This document shows positions 165 through 39,786 of a stretch of DNA of 40,042 nt, one piece after another (position 1 is the stretch's first letter; the number at the start of each line of letters is the position of its first letter). The notes beneath the pieces were generated by a model that worked only from the letters and a program-made list of their open reading frames with translations, was not told the origin of the DNA and searched no databases. Origin of the DNA: Bacteroidetes bacterium GWF2_33_38 (GTDB taxonomy: Bacteria > Bacteroidota > Bacteroidia > Bacteroidales > GWF2-33-38); assembly GCA_001769505.1 (NCBI GenBank), contig MEOF01000034.1, forward strand, positions 1 through 40,042. The letters are read 5' to 3'. The position numbers and the translations under genes were made by a program.

Positions 165-3100
165 ATGAGAAAATTTACATTGTTTATTGCTTTAGTCTTT
201 GTTGTTGCTTTCACGCAAGCTCAGATTGAAAGGAGTATTTCGGTGCAAAAAGCTCCTCCCGAATTAAACAGTTCAGAAGCAGTTAAAGCACAAACAGCCG
301 AACAGTCTAATAGAGGAGTGTTTTGGTCAGAATATTTTACCGATGGAGTTTTGCCGGCAGGCTGGCAAAATGTCGATAACTCAGGAAATAACTTTGTTTG
401 GATTTGTACCAATCAACCTCCGGGAGGAACCTATTCAGCGAATATTCCTGTAATCAGTTCAACCAGCGGAGGGCATTTTATGCAGTTACGCGGAGATTAT
501 TATAATACTCCAATGCCAACCCCAACAAATAAAATGGATGCTTATTTTCAAACACCGCCAATCGATTGTTCCGAAAGAAATGGTGTTGTCGTTGCTTTTA
601 ATCAATACTTTAGATATTATAGCACCGTTACATGGGTTCTTCAAGTAAGTAACGACAATGTAAATTGGGTGTCGTATGACTTAAAAGAAGGTTTGGCAGG
701 AAATGCATCATCGGCAAATCCTGTTAAAATGGAATTTAATATATCGAGCGTTGCTGCAAATCAACCAACTGTATATTTGCGTTGGTACGTAGCCGGAACA
801 AGCCATTATTTTTGGATGGTCGATGATATCGAACTTACAGAACCTACTGTAAACGATATTCAATTAGCCAAAATATATCCAGAGTTTTATGGGATTGGAT
901 TTTATTCAAAAATTCCAACTACTCAAGTCCAAGATTTTTATTTCTCTGCAACTGTTTCTAATTTTGGGATAGCAGCACAACACAATGTTCGATTAAATGG
1001 TGTTGCAAGCGATTTTTTGTCGAATGTTTATTTCGATAATTCGTCGGTAGCTACTGACATAATTGAATCAGAAGCGGTTGATACATTCGGAATCGAAACT
1101 GCTTTTGCTTTGCCGGCAGAAGTCAGATCTTATGAAGCAACATTTTCTATTCTTCAAGACGAAGTAGATGATGTTCCGGGTAATAATGTTGATAAGGTTT
1201 GGTTTGATGTAACCGATTCGATTTACGCTCGAGATATTACGATTACAACACGTACAGGTCCATCGAACTATACCGATGGTGTTGATGGGGATAAGGTTGG
1301 AGTTGTGTATTATTTTCCAAACGACGAAGAAATAAATTCTATTACAGTATTTATTAGTTCATATAGCACAGAGGGAACATCTTTTATAGGAAAACTTTTA
1401 GTTGATGACGGAGTCGGCAATTTAATTGAAAAAGCTACAACAGATATTTATACATTATCGGCATCAGACATAGGACAGTGGATAACCGTACCAATTATAA
1501 AAGATGGTGCATCAGAATTTATCGAAGCCGGATCTGACGGAATTTTGGCATATGCAATGATTGAATGTTATTTTGAAGGAATAGGCGACTTTTATGTAGG
1601 TGCAGACCAGTCGATTCATCATATTTTTGAAGACGAATCTCTTTTGATGCTTGGTTCAAGCAATTATTGGATTTCGATGGTTCCTGCGGTTCGTATAAAT
1701 GTAAATGTTCAAGGAGCAGAACTTTCAAGTTCAATTATTACCCGTGTTAATACATCATGTAATGGAGTTGCCGATGGCGAAGCCGTTGTTTATGCAACAG
1801 GAGGAACTCTTCCATACACGTATTTATGGTCAAATGGAGCAACAAACGATACAAATACAGGTTTAGTTGCCGGAACTTATTATGTTACGGTTTCTGATAA
1901 TGTTGGAGCAACTACACTCGATACCGTAATAATCGAACAGCCCGAAGTATTAGCAATTACAGCAGTAATTATTGACGAAGGAGGTTATCAAGCCTCTGAT
2001 GGCGAAATTAATATTACCACAAATGGCGGAACATATCCTTATTCGTATGTTTGGAATACTGGCTCTTATTCTGATGATATTGAAAATTTAGCAGGAGGCA
2101 CTTATACGATTACCGTTACAGATGCAAATGATTGTGTTGCGATTGAATCTTATGAGGTCGCAGGGTCAGCTTGTGGTATGACTTCTGAAATTTCAGGAAC
2201 AAATGTTTCTTGCTTTGCAGGAAATGATGGAACCGTAAATTTTACAGTTGCAAATGGAACGGCTCCTTATACATTTGAGTGGTTATCAGGACAAACAACA
2301 GAAGATTTAATAGGCTTAGAAGCTGGTTATTATAGTGTAACAGGAACTGATGCTGAAGGTTGTATTTCATATGCAAATATTACCTTAGAACAACCAACAG
2401 CTATATCTTCATCTTCAGTAGCTGCTAATGCTTTATGTAACGAAGGTTCTGACGGTTCGATAGATTTATCGGTAAGTGGCGGTACAGCACCATATACTTA
2501 CGAGTGGAACAATGGAGCTTTAGCACAAGATGTTCCCTCATTATCAGCAGGAGATTATGTAGTAACAATAACTGATGCAAAAGGATGTGAGCTGTTAGAC
2601 ACAATAACAATTTCAGCACCTAACGCATTAGTAACGACTTTGAATAATATTGTAACCTTAAGTTATTGCAATGGAGGTAAAGCTATTGCAGATATGAGTT
2701 ATACAGGCGGAACAATACCATACACATATTTATGGTCAACTGGTTCAACAGCAGCAGATTTAGCAATTATGACAGCCCCTGCAGAAGGAACCTATATAGT
2801 AACCGTAACCGATTCTCATGGCTGTATAGCTTTAGATACCATAGTAATTGATATGCCAGACATTATCTCTGTAACAGGAGTAGTAACACCAACAATAGGA
2901 ACTGATGGAGCAATAGATATTACAGCAGTAGGCGGAACCACTCCTTTTACTTATACATGGAGTAATGCAGCAACTACAGAGGATTTAACAGGATTATCAG
3001 AAGGAATTTATACCGTAACGGTAAAAGATTCGCACAACTGTACATCAAACTATGTTGGAGCAGTAAATGATGCATCATGCGATTTAACCGTAAGTTTAAA

Positions 3101-4898
3101 CCCAACGTCTTTATTATGTAATGGAGATGCAGACGGAAGCATAGCATTAGATACAACCGGATCAAGTGTTTCTATCGCTTCTTATGCTTGGAGTAATGGA
3201 GCAACAACACAAAACTTATCATCATTGGTTGCCAATATATATACAGTAACTGTAACCGATGATTCAAGTTGCGTTGTAATAGCATCAGCTGTAATAACTG
3301 AACCAGAAGAGTTAAGTTTAGATATGATTGGGACGGATATTTCATGTAATGGATTAACCGATGGTGCAATTGAGACTACCGTATCAGGAGGCACAACAGC
3401 TCATACTTACTTATGGGATAATGGAGAAACAACAACAGACATCACAGGATTATCAGCAGACACATATTCTGTAATCGTAACCGATGCAAATAACTGTACA
3501 GTTGAAGATTCAGTAACCATTATAGAACCAAGTGCAATATTAGCAAGCATTGTTGGAATAGACATCACATGTAATGGCAATTTTGATGGTTCAGCAGACT
3601 TAAGTGTAAGTGGTGGAACAGCACCATACACATACGATTGGAGTAACAATGCAATGACCCAAGACCTTGCCGATTTATTGGTAGGAACATATGCTGTAAC
3701 TGTAATTGATGCCAACGCATGCGAAGTCGCAACGACAGTAGATATAGCAGAGCCATCATCAATAGAAATAAGCATAGTTGGAACAGATGTATTGTGTTAT
3801 GGAAATTTTACTGGAGTAGCCGATTTAAGCGTAAGTGGCGGCATCACACCATACACTATTACATGGAGTAATTCAGAGGCAACCGAGGATGTTTCAGATT
3901 TAGCAGCAGGCACATACACAGTTGTCGTGTTAGATTCAAATTCATGTTCAGCTAATGCAAGTGTAGTAATTGCAGAATCAGCAGAAATAGTTGCCAGCAT
4001 TGTTGGAAGCGATATTACATGTAATGGTTTAACCGATGGCGAAGCCAACTTAACCGTAACAGGCGGAGTTAGTCCATACGCATTTGCATGGGATAATGCA
4101 GCAAGTACAGAAGATTTAACAGGATTATCAGCAGGCACATATAATGTAGTGGTAACTGATTCAAATGCATGTACAGCAACAGCATCAGTAATTATTTTAG
4201 AACCAACTGCTTTATCAGCAAGTGCCACAGGAACAAATGTATTATGTAATGGAGCAGCAACCGGAGATGCTGATTTAACAGTAACAGGAGGAACTGCCCC
4301 ATTTACTTATGCATGGAATAATTCAGCAACAACACAAGATTTAACCAATGTAGTAGCCGGCACATACAACGTAATCGTAAGTGATGTAAATGTTTGTACA
4401 GCAACAGCATCAGTAAGCATAACCGAGCCAACGGAATTAATTGCATCAACCGTAGTCGCAGACTCATCAACAAGCAACGATGTAACGATTGATTTAACAG
4501 TTACCGGAGGCGTAAGTCCATATACCTTTGCATGGAGCAATGATTCAACAACAGAAGATATAACCATTGATGTAGCAGCAACTTATTCTGTAACCATAAC
4601 TGACGCAAATGGATGTTCTGTTAACACTTCTGAAATAGTAATAATAACAGCCATCAACGATGCGGTAACAAATACTATCAACATTTATCCAAATCCAAGT
4701 AAAGGATTATTAAATGTAAGCAATGTAAAAGGAGCCGAAGTATCGATTTACAACATAATAGGCGAAACCATAATAAAAGTAACATCGACTACAAACAATG
4801 TATCTTTAGATATGAGTGAATTATCAAACGGAACATACATTGTAAGAATTGTAAAAGATTCGAATGTGATAACCAAAAAAGTAATGTTGAAGAAATAA
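165..4898 (+). CDS. T9SS-secreted SprB-repeat adhesin, 1577 aa
   Basis: Predicted cell-surface or secreted adhesin exported by Sec and then T9SS. Residues 1-19 form a signal peptide ending ...TQA. Residues about 48-225 resemble a MAM/concanavalin-A-like jelly-roll adhesion module (YFTDGVLPAGW near its start, FWMVDDIEL at its end). Residues about 225-520 are beta-rich with no family I can name. Residues 521-1500 hold 13 SprB-type repeats of about 75 aa, typified by CNG..DG, GGT.PYTY.WSNG and AGTY.VTVTDANGC. The last about 75 residues are a type-A T9SS sorting domain beginning INIYPNPSKG and ending TKKVMLKK. SprB itself is the mobile gliding adhesin of Flavobacterium johnsoniae, but it is far longer, so orthology is not claimed. 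The ATG at 165 fits the signal peptide and promoter. A terminator follows directly, so the gene is probably transcribed alone. The partial gene upstream is a paralogue. Confidence 0.9.
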   Translation: MRKFTLFIALVFVVAFTQAQIERSISVQKAPPELNSSEAVKAQTAEQSNRGVFWSEYFTDGVLPAGWQNVDNSGNNFVWICTNQPPGGTYSANIPVISSTSGGHFMQLRGDYYNTPMPTPTNKMDAYFQTPPIDCSERNGVVVAFNQYFRYYSTVTWVLQVSNDNVNWVSYDLKEGLAGNASSANPVKMEFNISSVAANQPTVYLRWYVAGTSHYFWMVDDIELTEPTVNDIQLAKIYPEFYGIGFYSKIPTTQVQDFYFSATVSNFGIAAQHNVRLNGVASDFLSNVYFDNSSVATDIIESEAVDTFGIETAFALPAEVRSYEATFSILQDEVDDVPGNNVDKVWFDVTDSIYARDITITTRTGPSNYTDGVDGDKVGVVYYFPNDEEINSITVFISSYSTEGTSFIGKLLVDDGVGNLIEKATTDIYTLSASDIGQWITVPIIKDGASEFIEAGSDGILAYAMIECYFEGIGDFYVGADQSIHHIFEDESLLMLGSSNYWISMVPAVRINVNVQGAELSSSIITRVNTSCNGVADGEAVVYATGGTLPYTYLWSNGATNDTNTGLVAGTYYVTVSDNVGATTLDTVIIEQPEVLAITAVIIDEGGYQASDGEINITTNGGTYPYSYVWNTGSYSDDIENLAGGTYTITVTDANDCVAIESYEVAGSACGMTSEISGTNVSCFAGNDGTVNFTVANGTAPYTFEWLSGQTTEDLIGLEAGYYSVTGTDAEGCISYANITLEQPTAISSSSVAANALCNEGSDGSIDLSVSGGTAPYTYEWNNGALAQDVPSLSAGDYVVTITDAKGCELLDTITISAPNALVTTLNNIVTLSYCNGGKAIADMSYTGGTIPYTYLWSTGSTAADLAIMTAPAEGTYIVTVTDSHGCIALDTIVIDMPDIISVTGVVTPTIGTDGAIDITAVGGTTPFTYTWSNAATTEDLTGLSEGIYTVTVKDSHNCTSNYVGAVNDASCDLTVSLNPTSLLCNGDADGSIALDTTGSSVSIASYAWSNGATTQNLSSLVANIYTVTVTDDSSCVVIASAVITEPEELSLDMIGTDISCNGLTDGAIETTVSGGTTAHTYLWDNGETTTDITGLSADTYSVIVTDANNCTVEDSVTIIEPSAILASIVGIDITCNGNFDGSADLSVSGGTAPYTYDWSNNAMTQDLADLLVGTYAVTVIDANACEVATTVDIAEPSSIEISIVGTDVLCYGNFTGVADLSVSGGITPYTITWSNSEATEDVSDLAAGTYTVVVLDSNSCSANASVVIAESAEIVASIVGSDITCNGLTDGEANLTVTGGVSPYAFAWDNAASTEDLTGLSAGTYNVVVTDSNACTATASVIILEPTALSASATGTNVLCNGAATGDADLTVTGGTAPFTYAWNNSATTQDLTNVVAGTYNVIVSDVNVCTATASVSITEPTELIASTVVADSSTSNDVTIDLTVTGGVSPYTFAWSNDSTTEDITIDVAATYSVTITDANGCSVNTSEIVIITAINDAVTNTINIYPNPSKGLLNVSNVKGAEVSIYNIIGETIIKVTSTTNNVSLDMSELSNGTYIVRIVKDSNVITKKVMLKK
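1725..4655 (+). repeat. Array of 13 in-frame SprB-type repeats (coding)
   Basis: The period is about 225 bp (75 aa). Each unit runs from a short strand with C(N/Y)G..DG, through GGT.PYTY.W.N, to a (A/L).GTY.V.VTD..(G/A/S)C strand and an (E/A)P linker. Repeats 8-12 are the most alike, suggesting recent unit duplication. Repeats 2, 5, 6, 7 and 13 are more diverged or lack the first Cys. This is protein-level repetition, not a CRISPR array or satellite. Confidence 0.85.
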
Positions 4899-31247: not shown

Positions 31248-32153
31248 ATGAAACTATTTGCTCTTGTTTTTATATTAATATCATTTATTGTTTCGACGAA
31301 CGATTCTTTGATACAAACAGAAAAGAAACCTGATTCAGATACTTTAAAATACATTTTTATTTCGCATTTATATCAATGGTATTCTGGAGGTAAAAAAGTT
31401 GATTTACGAGTCGAACAACTCAACCTATCCTCTTATTCAGGTATATGGTTAGGTGGTGATGTTTGTAGCGAAGCTGCACAGAGCTTTACCACGCTAGAAT
31501 ACATAGATAATTTGTTTGATTTGAGCAATACGTTGACCTTATGGACATTGGGAAATCATGATACTCGTAACTTTAATATGGAATGGATTTCTGAATTTAC
31601 AAATAAAAATTCTTACTATACAACACATTCTAATGGAATTACATATATTGTATTAAATACGAATTTTGTTCCATATGATTGTGAAAATATTGATAATCAA
31701 TACCGATTGTTGACAAATGTTTGTGACACAATAAGTACATCTTCGCACTTAATAATTTTAATGCATCATGGGATTATCTCCAATGTATCAGGAGTTCCAC
31801 AGCCTGATACATATGCACATACAAATTATTCATATTGGAATGCTAATTGCTATTCTGCCGATAGTAACTTTGCTAACACAATATATCCAAAATTAGTTAA
31901 AGTTAAACAAAAAGGAATTGATGTAATTTGTATTGTTGGAGACATGGGGTCGTTGCACAAAACGATTGAACTAACTTCACCTGATAGTATAAAAATATTA
32001 GGTTGCGGATTAAATAATTCATACTTTTTAGACTCGGTTGAGTTGTCTCAGGCAGACAAGGATAAAGTTCTAATATTTAAACACATTCCTGAGATAAGAA
32101 AATTATTTTGGAATTTTTGTGATTTAGATTCATTGTTAGAATCTCAAAATTAG
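31248..32153 (+). CDS. Exported metallophosphoesterase-like protein with altered metal motifs, 301 aa
   Basis: A signal peptide or anchor covers residues 1-17. Calcineurin-type motifs are present in order: GGD at 69-71, GNHD at 102-105 and MHHG at 172-175. The first motif, normally D-x-H, reads S39-H40-L-Y42, and the last, normally G-H-x-H, reads GDMG at 231-234. Two metal-ligand sites therefore differ from the classical family. Either this is a subfamily with other ligands or it is a weak or dead enzyme. It ends the operon begun at 26720 and its stop overlaps that of the convergent gene by 4 bases. A role in removing phosphate from a surface glycan would suit the neighbouring CotH-type kinase, but this is speculation. 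Confidence 0.72.
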   Translation: MKLFALVFILISFIVSTNDSLIQTEKKPDSDTLKYIFISHLYQWYSGGKKVDLRVEQLNLSSYSGIWLGGDVCSEAAQSFTTLEYIDNLFDLSNTLTLWTLGNHDTRNFNMEWISEFTNKNSYYTTHSNGITYIVLNTNFVPYDCENIDNQYRLLTNVCDTISTSSHLIILMHHGIISNVSGVPQPDTYAHTNYSYWNANCYSADSNFANTIYPKLVKVKQKGIDVICIVGDMGSLHKTIELTSPDSIKILGCGLNNSYFLDSVELSQADKDKVLIFKHIPEIRKLFWNFCDLDSLLESQN

Positions 32154-33613
32154 TGTTTAATTGATAATTTACCAGTATATTTTTCGCCATTATCTAACGT
32201 AATATTATACAGATACACCCCTTCTTTTAAATGACTAACCGAAATTTCACTCTTATAACTGTTTTTAACTTCGTAAAAATCAATTTGAACACCTTGTAAA
32301 TCATAAATGCTTAAATAATATTTAACACTTTTAAATTTAGGAATTTCAATTATTAATAATTCATCTGCGGGATTAGGAAATACATATGCATGCAATTCTG
32401 TCGAATCAAAAATATTGGAAACATAAATGATATCACCATTTTTGTTGATTTTTAGCAAATATATGTCTTCGTCGCCGCTCCCAAAACTCCTCGTTTTTCC
32501 AAGTACCGCAACGTTTCCTTCTTGGATACTTGCTACTGAATAACAATAATCTGATTCATTTCCTCCAAAAATGTTATTCCATATTATATTTCCATTAAAA
32601 TCTGTTTTAATGATAATTACATCTGTCTTATAATCATCACTATAACTGCTTGTCGTACCGCATAAATAAATTTCACTATTGTTATAAATACACATTGATT
32701 CACCATATTCAAATTCGCCTTCTCCGTACGTTTTTTCCCATCCAATATTACCAAACTCATTAATATTTATTAAGTAAATATCAAAACTTCCATTGCCATA
32801 CGATTGAGTTGATCCCATAATAAAATAACCCCCATTTTGGTCACTGATAATAGACTTTCCAAAATCATGTAAATTTCCCCCATATATTTTTCGCCATTCT
32901 TCAGTACCCGAAACATCGGTTTTAATTAATAGAATATCAGCATCGTGATAATAATATTCTATGGTTGGAGAATTAAATAAATACCCTTTTGTTGTTCCAA
33001 GCAATAAAAATCCATCATCGTTATTTGCACACACAACATCAAAACCAAAATCAACATAGTTTGATTCGTATGTTCTCGACCACTCAATATCACCATTTAC
33101 GTTAAGTTTATTTAAATAAATATCTCCATCATAATTTACAGTATTTGAATATCCTATTACAATAAGCTCTTCATCATGAATTTCTTTAACCGAAAAATAC
33201 ATTTCATTATAACTTCCCTCGAAATATTTCTGCCAAATAATATTTCCATTTGAATCAAGTTTTATAATAACACCATCGATTCTAAAACCATTGTCTATCA
33301 AACTCCAACAATATCCTGAAACTATATAATTTCCACTAGATGTTTCAATCGCATTAGTAGCAAAATCAAAAGAAATACCGCCGATATATTTTTGCCATAA
33401 GATATTTCCTAGTGTATCCGTTTTTATTAGCATTATATCATTACTTCCTGTTCCTGAACTTCTTGTATTAGCCACTATTAAATACCTTGAATCTGAAGTA
33501 TAAATGATTTTGCATCCACTATCATTCTTTGTCCCTCCATAGGTATATTCGCTTTGTGCTTGAACAAAAAATGTGTAAGAAAAATATATACTAATAATTA
33601 GAATCGTCCTCAT
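32150..33613 (-). CDS. T9SS-secreted beta-propeller-like repeat protein, 487 aa
   Basis: The ATG at 33613 gives a clean signal peptide (MRTILIISIYFSYTFFVQAQ); a TTG one codon upstream is less likely. The body is about seven repeats of roughly 50 residues built on W.K.YGG...D.G.SI....DGGY...G.T.S.G.G..DIYLIK.D.NGN, a pattern typical of secreted Bacteroidota propeller-like proteins. The last about 80 residues are a type-A T9SS sorting domain (YVFPNPADELLIIE, LKEGVYLYNI, GKLSIKH). No catalytic residues are apparent; binding or display is more likely. Its start overlaps the end of the upstream GT2 gene by 23 bases, so the two are translationally coupled. It converges with the phosphoesterase gene. 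Confidence 0.8.
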   Translation of the reverse strand: MRTILIISIYFSYTFFVQAQSEYTYGGTKNDSGCKIIYTSDSRYLIVANTRSSGTGSNDIMLIKTDTLGNILWQKYIGGISFDFATNAIETSSGNYIVSGYCWSLIDNGFRIDGVIIKLDSNGNIIWQKYFEGSYNEMYFSVKEIHDEELIVIGYSNTVNYDGDIYLNKLNVNGDIEWSRTYESNYVDFGFDVVCANNDDGFLLLGTTKGYLFNSPTIEYYYHDADILLIKTDVSGTEEWRKIYGGNLHDFGKSIISDQNGGYFIMGSTQSYGNGSFDIYLININEFGNIGWEKTYGEGEFEYGESMCIYNNSEIYLCGTTSSYSDDYKTDVIIIKTDFNGNIIWNNIFGGNESDYCYSVASIQEGNVAVLGKTRSFGSGDEDIYLLKINKNGDIIYVSNIFDSTELHAYVFPNPADELLIIEIPKFKSVKYYLSIYDLQGVQIDFYEVKNSYKSEISVSHLKEGVYLYNITLDNGEKYTGKLSIKH

Positions 33614-34547
33614 CAATTATATAAATTGGTCGCTTTTTATTTTCATCAAACAGATATCCAATGTACACTCCTATAATCCCGATTAAAAAAAATTGAACCG
33701 CAAACAAAACACTTATAAGAACAACTGTTGTAGTGTATCCAGGAGGCACATTACCGAAAATTCTCATTACAATGGAATAAATTCCAACAATTAAAGAAAA
33801 AACACTACAAATAATTCCCATTAACAATCCAAGGTAAAGAGGAATTTTCGAAAAGGAAACAATTGCAACCGTCGAAAGAATAAGCAATTTAAAAAAAGAA
33901 TACTTACTTTTGCCACCTATACGAGCATTTGCCGTGAACTCAATGGTAGTTTTTTTAAACCCTACACTCTGAATAAAGCCTCGTATAAATCTTGCTCTTT
34001 CGCGATATTCTGATTTAAGAATATTTGCAACACGTTTAGAAATCATAAAAAAGTCGGAAGCATTCTGCTCGAATTTAATTGGAGATATTTTATTAAGCAT
34101 AAAATAAAATACCTTTGATGTTAATCGTTTGTATAGTCCACCATCATGCCTTTCTTTTCTTACCATATTAACAATATCATATCCATCGTTATACGCCTTA
34201 ATCATGGCAAAAATCTTATCTGGAGGGTGCTGCAAATCAGCATCAAGACATATTATGACATCTCCAGTGCTTTTGTCTATTCCTGCCAACATAGCAGCCT
34301 CATGTCCAAAATTTTTGGAAAAATGAATGTTTTTTACATGGGTATGCTTTGCACAAATATCGTTAATAATTATTCTACTATTATCAACGCTTCCGTCGTT
34401 AACAAAAATCACTTCCCTTTCATACTGAATTTCTTCCAACACCAAATTCAATGTATTCCAAAAAAGCAGTATTACATCTTCCTCATTAAACATAGATACA
34501 ATAATTGAAATTTTTTTCAATTCTCTTTTTGAAGAATTTTGCAACAT
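33591..34547 (-). CDS. Membrane-anchored family 2 glycosyltransferase (GtrB/DPMS-like), 318 aa
   Basis: The Met at 34547 is chosen because it places KISIIVSMFNEEDV near the N-terminus as in the family. An upstream ATG at 34637 would add 30 residues of unlikely sequence. Motifs: VIFVNDGSVDNS, ICLDADLQHPP (DxD-type metal site), RHDGGLYKRL and the acceptor-loop QNASDFFMISK. Two C-terminal membrane helices (about 230-300) match GtrB-like enzymes that load a sugar on undecaprenyl phosphate at the inner membrane. The sugar might then be passed to a GT-C transferase such as the product of 28743-31244 (inference). It overlaps the downstream propeller-like gene. Confidence 0.88.
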   Translation of the reverse strand: MLQNSSKRELKKISIIVSMFNEEDVILLFWNTLNLVLEEIQYEREVIFVNDGSVDNSRIIINDICAKHTHVKNIHFSKNFGHEAAMLAGIDKSTGDVIICLDADLQHPPDKIFAMIKAYNDGYDIVNMVRKERHDGGLYKRLTSKVFYFMLNKISPIKFEQNASDFFMISKRVANILKSEYRERARFIRGFIQSVGFKKTTIEFTANARIGGKSKYSFFKLLILSTVAIVSFSKIPLYLGLLMGIICSVFSLIVGIYSIVMRIFGNVPPGYTTTVVLISVLFAVQFFLIGIIGVYIGYLFDENKKRPIYIIDEDDSNY

Positions 34548-34661
34548 ATATAGTATTATTTTAAACCGCTTAAAGGTAATGAATAATATGTTAGTATGAA
34601 AAAAATAACTCTGTAAATACTCATAAAATGCTGACATTTATGTAAAGTTGAAAAATTATAA

Positions 34662-34776: not shown

Positions 34777-37767
34777 ATGAAAATAGAACGAATAATATTT
34801 TTGCTAATTACCATTATTTTAATTGGAGTTGGTTGTAAAAAAAAGCAAACATTTCAAAAGATTAAACCAACTTTATTAGCTTCTTGCACATGTGGTGCCG
34901 AAAAACTGAATGCAGACAGCAAAAGATTTGACTGTGGCAACAATATTACTTGTTCAGGAGTTGATACAAGAACCGAAGAAAAAGTTCGCTCAGGAAAGTA
35001 TGCCGTACGATTATCAAACGATTTTCCTTTCAGTATGACATTCCAATTTGACGATGTAAAACAAGGCGAATATTTTGAAACTTCCGTTTGGTATTTTGGA
35101 GAAAATGGAAAAAGTAATATAATTGCATCTGATTTATCTGGTAAAAAAATATATATAGTTGAAAACCGAATAGCTAAAATTGAAAATGGATGGAGACTAC
35201 TAAAATTAAAATTCAGCATTCCTGTTTATGAAAATACAAATTCTATTAAAATATATCTATATTGCCAATCTAACAAACCTACATATTTCGACGATATGAC
35301 AATATCTCGATACAATATAAGACCTCGTAGCAAAAAAGAATCTGCATTATACCTTGAATACAAACCTGAACAATATGAACTTTTTAGAAGTCTTAAAGAA
35401 AAAATTTTAGAAGCATTTGTAATTGACAATAAAGAAAAAGAATGGGTAAAAGCAAATCTCTTTTATGAAAATCAAAAATATAAAACAAAAATCCGTTTTA
35501 AAGGAGATTGGACTGACCATGTTAGCTCTGACAAGTGGTCGTTTAGAATAAAAATAAAAGATGACTCATGGCAAAATTTGCGTACTTTCTCTATTCAGTC
35601 TCCAGTAGTTCGAGATTTTATGCATGAATGGGTGCTTCATAAACTTTTTACCTACGAAGACGTCTTAACCACTCGATACGAATTTATTCCCGTATATGTA
35701 AATAATATATATACGGGGATATATGCATATGAAGAACATTTCGAAAAACAATTAATTGAAAATAGAAATCGACGTGAAGGACCAATTATCAAATTCAATG
35801 AAAATGATATGTTTTCTAAATCAAAACACGAATTTAAGTCAGGTAGAAATGTTCGACTACCTATAATTCAAGCAAGTGAAATATTACCATTTGGCGAAAA
35901 TAAATTATTTGCAGATACTTCAATGAAAAGACAATTTGAAATTGCACAAAATCTTTTAAATGCATATAGAACCAATGCCTTATCTCCTGAAGATGTTTTT
36001 GATTTGGACCCTTTAGCAAAATTTTACGCCATCATTAGTTTAACAAAATCCTATCATGCATTAGCTTGGCATAATCAACGCTTCTATTTTAATCCCATAA
36101 CTCAAAAGCTAGAAATAATCGGATATGATGGAGGAGATCCGCATGGATATTCATACGGATGGGTTAAGCCAGCTATTTTTGGCGACTTTGAATTTTTACA
36201 TGGAATAAAAGATGCTAATTTCGATGAAAATTTATATAATTTCAATCTCAATTTATTTAAAAATAAAACCTTTTTGAATTTATATGTAAAATATCTTGAA
36301 AAATACAGCAATCCAGATTTTATTACCGCATTTAAACAAAGCATTAATACTGATTTTGAAAAAAATTTAAATATAATACAAACCGAGTATCCTGATTATA
36401 TCTTTAATTTTGAAAAATTATTTACGAATGCTCAGAATATCAAAAAAGCTATTGAACCATACAAAAAAACCATTTCTAAAAATGATTATATCGATAAATT
36501 TGAAACATTAAAAACGTCTAGTTTTGATGTAAACTATGACTTTTTTTACGACAAATTAATGTTAAAAGCATATAAAAAAAATATTGCAAAAGACTCTATT
36601 AAAATCCAAATTGCGAGTTTTATTTCCAAAAAAATTTATATAATTGGAACTGAAGATAAACAGGGAATTATACATAAATTCAACAATGAAGTTGCAATAT
36701 CTCAATATAAACTCGAACCTATTTATTGTGAAATAAATTGTCATGATGGCGACAGTTTGATATTTTATTCACAATCAAAAGATAAGTTACAGAAAGTAAA
36801 AATTCATGACTGGCAAATACCTAATTCAAATATTCCATTTCAACAGTTATTTTTAACTAATGATATCAGAAACATTGCAATATTTGATGAGAAAAATAAA
36901 GTTATAACTTTCAAAAAAAAGACAACAATTTCAAAAAACATAATTATACCATCTGATTACTCTGTAATTATTACCAAGGGATCTTCAATCGACATTGTTA
37001 ACAACGCTGTATTTATGACTTTTTCACCTATACAAATCGATGGAACAGAAAAAGAACCTGTTACAATAACTTCATCCGACGGCACAGCTCAAGGCTTTAC
37101 TATTTTACGAGCTAAAGGCAAATCCCATTTAACCCATGTCGTTTTTGATGGATTAAACACATTAAATTATAATGGATGGAATCTTACTGGAGCTGTTACT
37201 TTTTACGAATCAGATGTCGAATTCGGAGATTGCACATTTAAAAATAATAAATGTGAAGATGCATTAAATGTTATTCGTTCAACATTTGATATGAAAAATT
37301 GCATATTTAATAACATCTTCTCAGATGCTTTTGATTCAGATTTTTCTGATGGAATCATATTGAACAGTCGCTTTGAAAAAATAGCAAACGACGCCATCGA
37401 TTTTTCAGGCTCTAATGTAAAAATTGAAGACTGCAATATCGTAAATGCGGGGGATAAGGGAATAAGCGGGGGAGAAAATTCAAAAATGAATATTAGCGAT
37501 ATTATTATTAAAGGTTGCAACATAGGAATCGCATCAAAAGACAAATCGGTATTAGAAGTTAATAATTCAACGCTGGAAAATTGCAAATACGGGTTCGTAT
37601 TATTACAGAAAAAACCAGAATACGGAGATGCGTCTTTAAATGCAAATAATATTAAACTTAATAACTGTGCCGTAAACCATTTAATAGAAAGTGGTTCAGA
37701 TTTTTATATTGATGGAGAAAAAATAATTGGGAAAGAAAAAAAATTAGCTGATATTTTTTATAAATAA
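34777..37767 (+). CDS. CotH-kinase lipoprotein with N-terminal beta-domain and C-terminal beta-helix, 996 aa
   Basis: A lipoprotein with Cys20 in a VGC lipobox. The next residues are KKK, not acidic, so it may stay in the periplasm rather than reach the surface. Residues about 36-180 are a beta-domain (CGAEKLNADS, VKQGEYFETSVWYFG, GWRLLKLKFSIP, YFDDMTIS) that recurs as the core of the next gene. Residues about 200-570 are CotH-like: IRFKGDW, WSFRIKIK (candidate ATP-binding Lys), VNNIYTGIYAYEEHFEK (319-324), WHNQRFYFNP (431-440) and GYDGGDP (449-455) for the catalytic Asn/Asp region. CotH of Bacillus spores is an atypical kinase that phosphorylates coat proteins. Residues about 690-985 are a right-handed parallel beta-helix (short repeats of .DCTFKNN., .NCIFNNI., .DCNIVNAG.) ending in a charged tail. 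A kinase tethered to a glycan-binding-type helix suggests phosphorylation of a wall or surface polymer or protein (inference). Confidence 0.8.
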   Translation: MKIERIIFLLITIILIGVGCKKKQTFQKIKPTLLASCTCGAEKLNADSKRFDCGNNITCSGVDTRTEEKVRSGKYAVRLSNDFPFSMTFQFDDVKQGEYFETSVWYFGENGKSNIIASDLSGKKIYIVENRIAKIENGWRLLKLKFSIPVYENTNSIKIYLYCQSNKPTYFDDMTISRYNIRPRSKKESALYLEYKPEQYELFRSLKEKILEAFVIDNKEKEWVKANLFYENQKYKTKIRFKGDWTDHVSSDKWSFRIKIKDDSWQNLRTFSIQSPVVRDFMHEWVLHKLFTYEDVLTTRYEFIPVYVNNIYTGIYAYEEHFEKQLIENRNRREGPIIKFNENDMFSKSKHEFKSGRNVRLPIIQASEILPFGENKLFADTSMKRQFEIAQNLLNAYRTNALSPEDVFDLDPLAKFYAIISLTKSYHALAWHNQRFYFNPITQKLEIIGYDGGDPHGYSYGWVKPAIFGDFEFLHGIKDANFDENLYNFNLNLFKNKTFLNLYVKYLEKYSNPDFITAFKQSINTDFEKNLNIIQTEYPDYIFNFEKLFTNAQNIKKAIEPYKKTISKNDYIDKFETLKTSSFDVNYDFFYDKLMLKAYKKNIAKDSIKIQIASFISKKIYIIGTEDKQGIIHKFNNEVAISQYKLEPIYCEINCHDGDSLIFYSQSKDKLQKVKIHDWQIPNSNIPFQQLFLTNDIRNIAIFDEKNKVITFKKKTTISKNIIIPSDYSVIITKGSSIDIVNNAVFMTFSPIQIDGTEKEPVTITSSDGTAQGFTILRAKGKSHLTHVVFDGLNTLNYNGWNLTGAVTFYESDVEFGDCTFKNNKCEDALNVIRSTFDMKNCIFNNIFSDAFDSDFSDGIILNSRFEKIANDAIDFSGSNVKIEDCNIVNAGDKGISGGENSKMNISDIIIKGCNIGIASKDKSVLEVNNSTLENCKYGFVLLQKKPEYGDASLNANNIKLNNCAVNHLIESGSDFYIDGEKIIGKEKKLADIFYK

Positions 37768-37770
37768 CAT

Positions 37771-37778
37771 TATATTTG
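37771..37778 (+). promoter_or_regulatory. Possible -7 box for the small CotH-linked lipoprotein
   Basis: TATATTTG matches TAnnTTTG exactly in the 49-base gap after the CotH gene, 38 bases before the ATG. No TTG lies 20 bases upstream, so it may only be an internal secondary promoter. Confidence 0.3.
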
Positions 37779-37816
37779 TGCTCGAATTGAATAACTAATT
37801 TTTAAAATAAACCTAT

Positions 37817-38371
37817 ATGAAATCATCGTTTTTTTTACAACTGCTTTTTGTTACAATAGTTTCGCTTACTATATCATGTAACAATGATGAAAAAGCAACT
37901 GAAATATCTGAATTTGTTTTCTGTGATGCTGAAAATTTGAGTGCTGATAGTTCAATGATTGTTCCATCTACAAAGTTTTGGACTTCAACTTTTAAAGGAG
38001 GCAAAATGATTTCAGACGAACAAGCCAAAAATGGAAAAAGTTCAATTAAGCTATTTGATAAAAATCAATTTGGATTGACTTACATAGTTAATAATGTTAA
38101 GTCGGGAGATAAATTCGTTGCTGAAGTTTGGCGATTTGGAGCAGATTTAGCTCTTGTTGCATCAGCGAGAGATTCTAAATTATTTTATAAAGACCAAAAA
38201 GAAGCAAAGGAAAAAGATGAGCGTGGTTGGGAAAAACTTGAATTAGAAATAACTATTCCTGCAGGATATATTGAAACCGAATTGCTTATTTATGTTTGGA
38301 ATCCTAAAAAAGATATTGCAAATTTTGCCGACGACTTAAAAATTAGCTTTATTCAAAAAACATCTGAATAA
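37817..38371 (+). CDS. Small lipoprotein, stand-alone copy of the CotH N-terminal domain, 184 aa
   Basis: The signal peptide ends at Cys21 (LTISC) followed by NNDEK, whose acidic pair suits surface export. The whole mature chain aligns with residues about 36-180 of the CotH lipoprotein upstream. Shared words are C.AE.L.ADS, GK.(A/S)(V/I).L, VK.G(E/D).F...VW.FG, GW..L.L.(F/I)(S/T)IP, and a closing F(D/A)D(D/M).IS. It has neither kinase nor helix. The fold looks like a carbohydrate-binding-type beta-sandwich, but no family is recognised. Lying 49 bases after the CotH gene with a terminator behind it, it probably forms a two-gene unit and could bind the same ligand or act as partner or competitor (inference). 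Confidence 0.75.
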   Translation: MKSSFFLQLLFVTIVSLTISCNNDEKATEISEFVFCDAENLSADSSMIVPSTKFWTSTFKGGKMISDEQAKNGKSSIKLFDKNQFGLTYIVNNVKSGDKFVAEVWRFGADLALVASARDSKLFYKDQKEAKEKDERGWEKLELEITIPAGYIETELLIYVWNPKKDIANFADDLKISFIQKTSE

Positions 38372-38499: not shown

Positions 38500-39786
38500 T
38501 TGAGCATACTATTAGCTATATTGTACGTTGTTGTGTTTATTTTTTTGATTTATCGTTTAGAGTTTTTCCAAACCAATGGTATTTCAAAACGAATAATAAG
38601 TGCGATTTTTATACTTAAAATTCTCAGTGGTTTTGGGCTGATTTTTATTTACACTCATTATTATAAAACTCGCGAAAGTGCCGATATATACAAGTATTTC
38701 GACGATGCAAAAGTTATTTATTCGGCTGCTTACGAAGCTCCTGTTGATTATTTGAAGATGATTACTGGAATTGATTCCGATTCTGATTATTTAAGAGAAA
38801 TGTATTTTTCAAAAACGAATTCTTGGTATAAAGAATGGGACTATCATTTGTACAACGACAATCGAACGATTACTCGATTTAATGCTCTTGCCATGCTTAT
38901 TTCAAACCAAAGTATTTACATTCATACTATATTCATGGCTTTTTTATCGTTAATCGGGTTATTGTCTATATATAAGGTATTTGTAAATTATTTGAAAGGA
39001 AAAGAAAAATTGTTAATAATTTTCACGTTCCTATTGCCAACCGTTATGCTATGGTCGTCAGGAGTGCTTAAAGAAGGCATTTTGGTTTTTGCATTTGGAA
39101 TTATGTTTTTGGGTTTTTATCGAATGATTCAAAAGTTCAGTTTTCGATACCTTCTGTTGTTTTCAATAGGAATAGCTTTACTTTCAATTACTAAATTTTA
39201 TACACTAATGGCAGCAATTCCAGGAATGATTGCATTGCTTTGGATACAAAAAACAAACGGAAAACGACCTTTTTTAAAATTCATAATTGTCCACACATTA
39301 GCATTTATTGGAGTCATAAGCAATAATTATGTTTTATTTGTTTTGTATAAAAAACAAGTCGATTTTCAAATCCTGATTGACGGTTTAACAACCCAAGTTG
39401 GAAGTTACATAAGTGTTCCTAATCTAGAGCCAACGGCTTTAAGTTTTCTCAAAAACGCACCTATTGCATTTTCAAATACTTTTTTACGACCGCATATTTT
39501 CGAAGTGTATTCTCCGGTTGTATTTTTTGCTGCCGCAGAAAATTTACTCATAATCATGGGTCTTGTTTTGAGTTTGATTTTTATAAACAAAAGGAAAATC
39601 TCAAATTATTCCCTTTTGTATTTTTCTATCTTTTTTGTTGTGATAATGTTTATTTTGTGCGGATTAGTAACTCCTGTTATGGGTGCGTTGGTACGTTATA
39701 AAATGCCTGCATTGCCATTCCTCTTCATTATTTTTATCATGATTGTAGATATTGATAAAATCAAACGGTTTTTAAAAAAGGGATAA
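38500..39786 (+). CDS. Polytopic membrane protein, putative glycosyltransferase or polymerase, 428 aa
   Basis: About ten membrane helices with one large outer loop near residues 58-130 (ADIYKYFDDAK, YKEWDYHLYNDNRTI), rich in Asp, Tyr and Arg as in GT-C transferases and EpsG/Wzy-type polymerases. A second conserved-looking stretch is SSGVLKEGILVFAFG. I know similar Bacteroidota proteins only as hypotheticals. The start is taken as TTG at 38500 because an in-frame TGA lies at 38485-38487, the nearby ATG at 38495 is out of frame (it reads M-Y-stop), and the first hydrophobic helix begins at once. A frameshift in the preceding run of nine A residues is an alternative. It has its own transcription after the terminator at 38395-38429. 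Confidence 0.65.
   Translation: MSILLAILYVVVFIFLIYRLEFFQTNGISKRIISAIFILKILSGFGLIFIYTHYYKTRESADIYKYFDDAKVIYSAAYEAPVDYLKMITGIDSDSDYLREMYFSKTNSWYKEWDYHLYNDNRTITRFNALAMLISNQSIYIHTIFMAFLSLIGLLSIYKVFVNYLKGKEKLLIIFTFLLPTVMLWSSGVLKEGILVFAFGIMFLGFYRMIQKFSFRYLLLFSIGIALLSITKFYTLMAAIPGMIALLWIQKTNGKRPFLKFIIVHTLAFIGVISNNYVLFVLYKKQVDFQILIDGLTTQVGSYISVPNLEPTALSFLKNAPIAFSNTFLRPHIFEVYSPVVFFAAAENLLIIMGLVLSLIFINKRKISNYSLLYFSIFFVVIMFILCGLVTPVMGALVRYKMPALPFLFIIFIMIVDIDKIKRFLKKG

Follow-up and report, generated by a model that had tools for sequence, protein, structure and literature searches.

A CotH-like, beta-helix lipoprotein of Bacteroidota with an altered active site and its candidate role in polysaccharide modification

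The window analyzed here is a stretch of 40,042 nt from Bacteroidetes bacterium GWF2_33_38 (contig MEOF01000034.1). It encodes a lipoprotein, hereafter the core, that joins an N-terminal beta-domain, a CotH-like domain, and a right-handed beta-helix, followed by a satellite lipoprotein that consists of the beta-domain alone. The CotH-like domain retains the fold and the nucleotide- and metal-site residues of CotH kinases and lacks their catalytic Asp. From the CotH fold, the conserved site, the conserved helix, the links to VTC and DUF4956 genes, the fusions of the beta-domain, and nearby glycosyltransferases, we infer that the core is most likely a periplasmic module that uses phosphate or nucleotide in modifying a surface polysaccharide. 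The family touches the open question of how kinase-fold proteins could function in ATP-poor surroundings beyond the cytoplasm. It offers a testable answer, a kinase-fold lipoprotein with an apparently rebuilt site that is often encoded near a VTC-type polyphosphate polymerase and the membrane protein DUF4956, and it points to roles for DUF4956 and for a domain, as yet without a name, that resembles carbohydrate-binding modules (CBMs).

Results

Domain architecture of the core and its relatives

Both genes are where an earlier note on this DNA had placed them, in open reading frames (ORFs) at 34777–37767 (+ strand, 996 aa) and 37817–38371 (+ strand, 184 aa). Their features are as follows.

34777–37767, + strand: core gene, 996 aa lipoprotein with beta-domain, CotH-like domain, and beta-helix (ORF, Pfam on sub-ranges, AlphaFold2 model)
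34777–34836, + strand: signal peptide and lipobox of the core, aa 1–20, IGVGC then KKKQ (sequence and pattern)
34873–35316, + strand: N-terminal jelly-roll, CBM-like beta-domain of the core, aa about 33–180 (model strands, satellite match, CBM-type fold matches)
35332–36501, + strand: CotH-like domain of the core, aa about 186–575 (PF08757, 39.5 bits; 5jda superposition)
36055–36075, + strand: altered catalytic loop H427-A428-x-x-W431-H432-N433, with A428 at the canonical CotH Asp position
36127–36129, + strand: D451, opposite the metal-site Asp of Bacillus cereus CotH in the 5jd9 alignment
36544–36846, + strand: small all-beta linker domain of the core, aa about 590–690 (model strands; poorly conserved)
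36853–37746, + strand: right-handed beta-helix of the core, aa about 693–990 (PF13229, 42.3 bits; AlgG superposition)
37817–38371, + strand: satellite, 184 aa lipoprotein with the beta-domain only (ORF, model, CBM-type fold)

Residues 1–20 of the core close in a lipobox-like ...IGVGC, with CKKKQ at the Cys and no acidic stretch after it. Submitted alone, the CotH-like domain exceeds the PF08757 cut-off of 23.8 bits and the helix the PF13229 cut-off of 25.9 bits; the PF08757 match recurs at 39.2 bits in a whole-genome family search. Sub-ranges were needed, as a Pfam hmmscan of the whole protein (E ≤ 1) and an NCBIfam scan reported neither CotH nor helix. Single-sequence searches of the PDB gave nothing useful, and profile searches gave matches. 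An AlphaFold2 model of the core, built from an alignment of 33 sequences including the window, has a mean predicted local distance difference test score (pLDDT) of 86.2 and a predicted TM score of 0.88, with low values at residues 19–27, parts of 458–486, and 580–586. The modeled chain runs from a jelly-roll through the CotH domain and a small all-beta domain to a long right-handed beta-helix. In comparisons with solved structures, the CotH part superposes over 329 residues on Mg/AMP-bound B. cereus CotH (5jda; Z 27.3, root-mean-square deviation 3.5), and the helix over 281 residues on AlgG (Z 27.8, 9% identity). The hidden Markov model and structure searches that the earlier note had called for thus confirm both CotH and beta-helix, and its joining of lipobox, beta-domain, CotH-like domain, and helix in one chain stands, as do the motifs WHNQRFYFNP and GYDGGDP in the core protein.

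One scan of GTDB genomes returned 519 relatives, of which the best 80 are our named loci. These come from Bacteroidota groups, with 5 from Chlorobiota, and share 32 to 42% identity with the core over the best segment. All three domains occur together in 79 of them, the exception being L131 (784 aa). The earlier note had not recognized the design; on these sequences it is common, not unique. Of the 295 genomes sampled from the class, 54 gave a match, in 9 cases through the beta-domain alone. The lipobox pattern is found in 43/80 named cores; the remainder comprise truncated sequences, sequences with a wrongly placed start, and sequences that have no lipobox. Two core genes occur in the same locus at five of the named loci (L087, L109, L110, L113, and L159).

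Conservation was scored in 80 close rows, namely the window and 79 of the 80 named loci. Positions conserved at 90% or more number 67/390 in the CotH domain, 53/293 in the helix (residues 693–985), 7/149 in the beta-domain, and 2/117 in the linker (576–692). Acidic helix positions E811, D828, D850, D853, D855, D872, D875, and D893 are kept at 95% or more.

The CotH active site lacks the catalytic Asp and appears rebuilt

Alignment of the family profile with B. cereus CotH puts Ala428 opposite the Asp of NFDGFVHN, N433 opposite its Asn, and D451 opposite the metal-site Asp. WHNQRFYFNP therefore marks the site where the CotH catalytic Asp is missing. We take B. subtilis D228 and D251 to be the Asp residues of the two motifs, on the basis of a 23-residue spacing and the alignment; at D228 the core has Ala428. 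According to PMC7821199, the D228Q substitution inactivates B. subtilis CotH.

Position 428 is Gly in 57, Ser in 18, and Ala in 5 of the close rows, and Asp in none. A second alignment comprised 32 more diverse core rows (23 with helix) and 12 canonical CotH rows. There, 428 is Ala, Gly, or Ser in 32/32 core rows, and the equivalent residue is Asp in 11 canonical rows; the twelfth, from contig C58 of the window genome, seems to carry an insertion at this site. The earlier note's label of kinase is not supported, given these replacements. The core otherwise resembles CotH kinases in its PF08757 profile match, its fold, and its nucleotide/metal-site Lys, Glu, Asn, and Asp. H427, K253, N433, D451, D244, H248, H321, and R435 are invariant in the close rows, E320 is present in 79/80, and D247 in 78/80. 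Several of the His and Asp residues fixed in the window's branch are absent from the canonical rows. As read from these alignments, the window's branch has kept the nucleotide/metal site and lost the usual catalytic residue, and its active site looks rebuilt rather than decayed. Compared with the Bacillus spore-coat kinase (PF08757; 5jd9, 5jda), then, the core family differs by Ala, Gly, or Ser for Asp after a conserved His, by the fixed D244, H248, and H321 and nearly fixed D247, and the core differs by being a lipoprotein that carries a beta-domain and a beta-helix.

The same genome encodes four more CotH proteins, on contigs C62 (47363–48829), C10 (29123–30121), C6 (139716–140684), and C58 (14462–15487). 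The catalytic Asp is missing from the C62 protein, which has a beta-domain, and from the C10 protein, which has none; it is present in the C6 protein.

VTC and DUF4956 genes accompany many relatives

Neighbors were counted at those 47 named loci where 3 kb or more of sequence flank the core in each direction, using profiles built here from clusters; two VTC and two DUF4956 cluster members pass the Pfam cut-offs. Within 3 kb of the core lie DUF4956 genes at 31/47 loci and VTC genes at 29/47, every one on the same strand, and at 27/47 both are within 2 kb. A metallophosphoesterase gene is found within 3 kb at 20/47 loci (13 on the same strand) and a family 2 glycosyltransferase gene at 10/47. 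At the genome level, 41 of the 45 genomes that match CotH or the helix also have VTC, compared with 103 of the 250 others (Fisher p 1.8e-10, uncorrected for kinship). Among 14 named control genomes, VTC and DUF4956 both match, in the same three.

The VTC proteins of the relatives' loci match yeast Vtc4 in a profile search (PDB 3g3q; E 3.2e-6). They differ from the yeast complex in being short, and no membrane segments are predicted in the 11 VTC-family proteins checked. Yeast VTC makes polyphosphate and carries it across a membrane, according to PMC10657179. That polyphosphate might pass through DUF4956 is a guess on our part.

Related gene groups have been described. In Gram-positive pel clusters, genes for CotH, a polyphosphate polymerase, and DUF4956 are adjacent, and PMC7112168 goes no further than to suggest a regulatory role. 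The relatives' loci share these three families and a polysaccharide context. The pel-linked trio is described there as a set of accessory genes found in Streptococcus, Clostridium, and Bifidobacterium, whereas the core is a Bacteroidota lipoprotein fused to a beta-helix, and the VTC and DUF4956 genes of the window genome are located elsewhere. VTC and CotH genes are also close together in Clostridium perfringens, as described in PMC2879425. No paper on a Bacteroidota CotH/beta-helix fusion was found among the literature matches listed, which were available in part. The core is a CotH-superfamily protein without the catalytic Asp of CotH kinases, and it represents a variant of the known CotH/VTC/DUF4956 association.

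At 14/68 loci, 8 of them with VTC in the locus, the upstream order is metallophosphoesterase, opposite-strand type IX secretion system (T9SS) protein, and core, where the T9SS profile may match any T9SS tail. The window shares this order, with a glycosyltransferase gene inserted before the core. Because the upstream gene order is kept, the window is probably the same locus as the relatives', with the VTC/DUF4956 pair absent or moved.

The satellite lipoprotein and the beta-domain

The satellite gene follows the core on the same strand after 49 bases. The first 21 residues of its product close in a lipobox-like ...LTISC. The earlier note had called its signal the more export-like of the two, and CNNDEK at the satellite Cys is indeed closer than CKKKQ of the core to the surface-export signal of lipoproteins described in PMC5080379. 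Because an export-like acidic signal is present in the satellite and absent from the core, the two proteins may lie on opposite faces of the outer membrane.

As had been noticed earlier, the satellite carries the core's beta-domain and no other (28% identity, E 5e-12 to 1e-12). Its model (pLDDT 87.9) is a jelly-roll that matches CBM16, CBM22, and a porphyran-binding CBM at Z 12.1 to 10.6 over 122 to 137 residues. Proteins that are not CBMs score alike, with a mosquito surface protein ranking first (Z 12.3), so the fold is not CBM-specific. Neither the satellite nor the core beta-domain has a Pfam match at E ≤ 1, and a sequence match to a described CBM family is thus lacking. At E ≤ 1e-6, matches to the beta-domain, many of them weak, occur in 120 of the 295 genomes sampled from the class, and the domain is also found fused to DUF2079, DUF2142, and DUF6311 membrane proteins. 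We read it, from this distribution, as a putative mobile glycan-binding module.

A kinase with its satellite binder, which the earlier note had offered as a system, is not borne out by the genome survey: a free-standing same-strand beta-lipoprotein stands beside the core at 1/80 named loci (L139, where VTC and core flank it), and at L093 a 105 aa beta-domain fragment lies on the opposite strand beside the core. Each of the two same-family genomes sampled encodes a free-standing beta-lipoprotein as well as a core-like gene, with the two on separate contigs. The satellite may instead be a copy of the beta-domain of some core-type gene, with no special link to the adjacent core, an explanation that we regard as possible if rather doubtful. 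With the satellite itself set aside, the sequence closest to it in the genome is the C62 beta-domain (32%, E 1.2e-18), and the adjacent core scores lower (28%, E 1e-12). The L139 copy groups with the beta-domain of its own core, weakly (85/51), and further free-standing copies are found apart from cores, including two (L177 and L185, the latter from G133) that adjoin MBOAT and AlgX-type acetylation genes. Identities of 28 to 32%, however, speak against a recent copy; the beta-domain tree is mostly unresolved and leaves the origin of the window satellite open; and two beta-domains within one chain at L043/L155 suggest that two copies can be useful.

MBOAT-like genes were also considered as neighbors of cores and were not built upon, being within 5 kb at only 7/80 named loci by our own profile from four proteins.

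Between core and satellite, TATATTTG at 37771–37778 resembles a Bacteroidota −7 promoter element. Given this resemblance, the satellite may have a promoter of its own.

A proposed role for the core and the alternatives to it

We propose that the beta-domain would dock on a glycan, while the CotH-fold domain would bind a phosphate-rich donor, either a nucleotide or polyphosphate. Through the rebuilt site of D247, H248, K253, E320, H427, N433, and D451, it would transfer phosphate or use the donor as a ligand, and the beta-helix would bind or reshape the same polysaccharide on which the beta-domain docks. In many relatives, the adjacent VTC-type polymerase and DUF4956 would synthesize polyphosphate and pass it through the inner membrane, to the supply of an ATP-poor periplasm; in the window genome, that pair is encoded elsewhere. 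The satellite would play an accessory part as a lipoprotein that binds glycan, perhaps on the outer face. We tentatively assign the core, as an envelope lipoprotein, to such a phosphate-linked module for polysaccharide modification. The envelope phosphorylation system put forward in the earlier note survives within it in part, through the CotH-fold lipoprotein, the retained nucleotide/metal residues, and the phosphate- and glycan-enzyme neighbors of the family; the kinase and the pairing with the satellite are not supported.

Several observations weigh against the proposal. The catalytic Asp is missing, Ala428 standing in its place. The diverse rows are less strict than the close ones (H427 in 31, K253 in 27, E320 in 29, N433 in 21, and D451 in 22 of 32). 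Neither VTC nor DUF4956 lies within 3 kb at 15/47 loci, and a canonical CotH gene or a Wzy_C-type ligase gene lies within 3 kb of the core at 0/80 named loci. At the window core itself VTC and DUF4956 are not next to the CotH gene: one VTC–DUF4956 pair of this genome sits on contig C65, the 20 kb of surrounding sequence that was read showed no CotH gene, and the genome's five CotH matches all lie on other contigs.

The CotH domain may instead be a pseudokinase that binds nucleotide or polyphosphate for structural or sensing purposes and transfers no phosphate, with the beta-helix working on the polysaccharide. This we consider somewhat unlikely. It accords with the replacement of the catalytic Asp in every close and diverse row, with the strongly conserved helix positions, and with the loss of K253, E320, or N433 in some outlying lineages (L056, L057, L058, L060, L061, L062, L069, and L079). 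It accords also with the joint substitutions N433D and D451E, found in the core at 10/10 loci that also carry a canonical, cluster 4 CotH gene (families f26, f36, f14, and f13; one of these loci, L071, has no helix match) and in 0/22 other diverse rows and 0/80 close rows. The operon of the ten-locus clade runs, with small variations, DUF4956, VTC, canonical CotH, Wzy_C-type ligase (9/10), core, and metallophosphoesterase. Because the ten loci form one clade (support 100/99), however, the substitutions count as one event. A division of labor repeatedly proven by these substitutions was rejected on the same tree. The pattern fits a lone core that might do the chemistry itself, but it fits a scaffold role too. 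Opposed to a pseudokinase, moreover, is the invariance or near-invariance of the metal and nucleotide residues in the close rows, a constraint beyond the needs of a decayed enzyme.

It is quite unlikely, in our estimate, that the beta-helix acts as an epimerase or lyase on polysaccharide and that the beta-domain and CotH domain target and regulate it. AlgG, mannuronan C-5 epimerases, and lyases are among its best fold matches, the many other matching helices are mostly carbohydrate-active, and the acidic helix positions are conserved. Right-handed beta-helices are common, however, and tailspikes and NosD (Z 23.1) appear in the same list. The likeness to AlgG and the epimerases is one of fold.

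As for the proposal in its most specific form, it is improbable that the family comprises envelope phosphotransferases that use exported polyphosphate made by VTC/DUF4956, and not ATP, at a His-centered CotH-fold site and that phosphorylate extracellular polysaccharides or glycoproteins. An active envelope protein kinase with the satellite as its binder or substrate, as the earlier note had it, is very improbable: it could draw on the CotH fold, the retained nucleotide-site residues, and the adjacency of the two genes, and it founders on the missing Asp, given the inactivity of the D228Q protein (PMC7821199), and on the near absence of same-strand satellites beside other cores.

Other genes of the window

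The genes around the core and satellite include the following.

38500–39786, + strand: membrane protein, 428 aa, about 10 predicted transmembrane segments, no Pfam match
33591–34637, − strand: family 2 glycosyltransferase, divergent from the core; PF00535 above cut-off, NCBIfam matches below cut-off
32150–33616, − strand: secreted protein, C-terminal T9SS sorting tail; similar proteins occupy this position upstream of other cores
31248–32153, + strand: exported metallophosphoesterase-like protein; PF00149 at 21.9 bits (cut-off 21.5), atypical metal motifs

Relatives of the 428 aa membrane protein are encoded near cores in L060, L061, L062, and L178, and the glycosyltransferase resembles polyprenyl-phosphate sugar transferases. 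In the metallophosphoesterase, the motifs DxH and GHxH, which we take to be the usual ones of such enzymes, are GH/SH and GDxG, with GD, GNHD, and a His kept in 11/11 rows (alignment A6). Its profile matched general phosphoesterases and nucleases only. Like the CotH domain, it is by sequence a conserved but atypical phosphate enzyme. Between 26720 and 32153, it stands head to tail and almost without gaps with genes for a 670 aa lipoprotein-like protein and an 839 aa protein with 8 predicted membrane segments, neither of which has a Pfam or NCBIfam match. Relatives of the 670 aa protein occur near free-standing beta-lipoproteins in L176 and L185. Farther away, positions 165–4898 encode a 1577 aa T9SS protein with 12 SprB repeat stretches.

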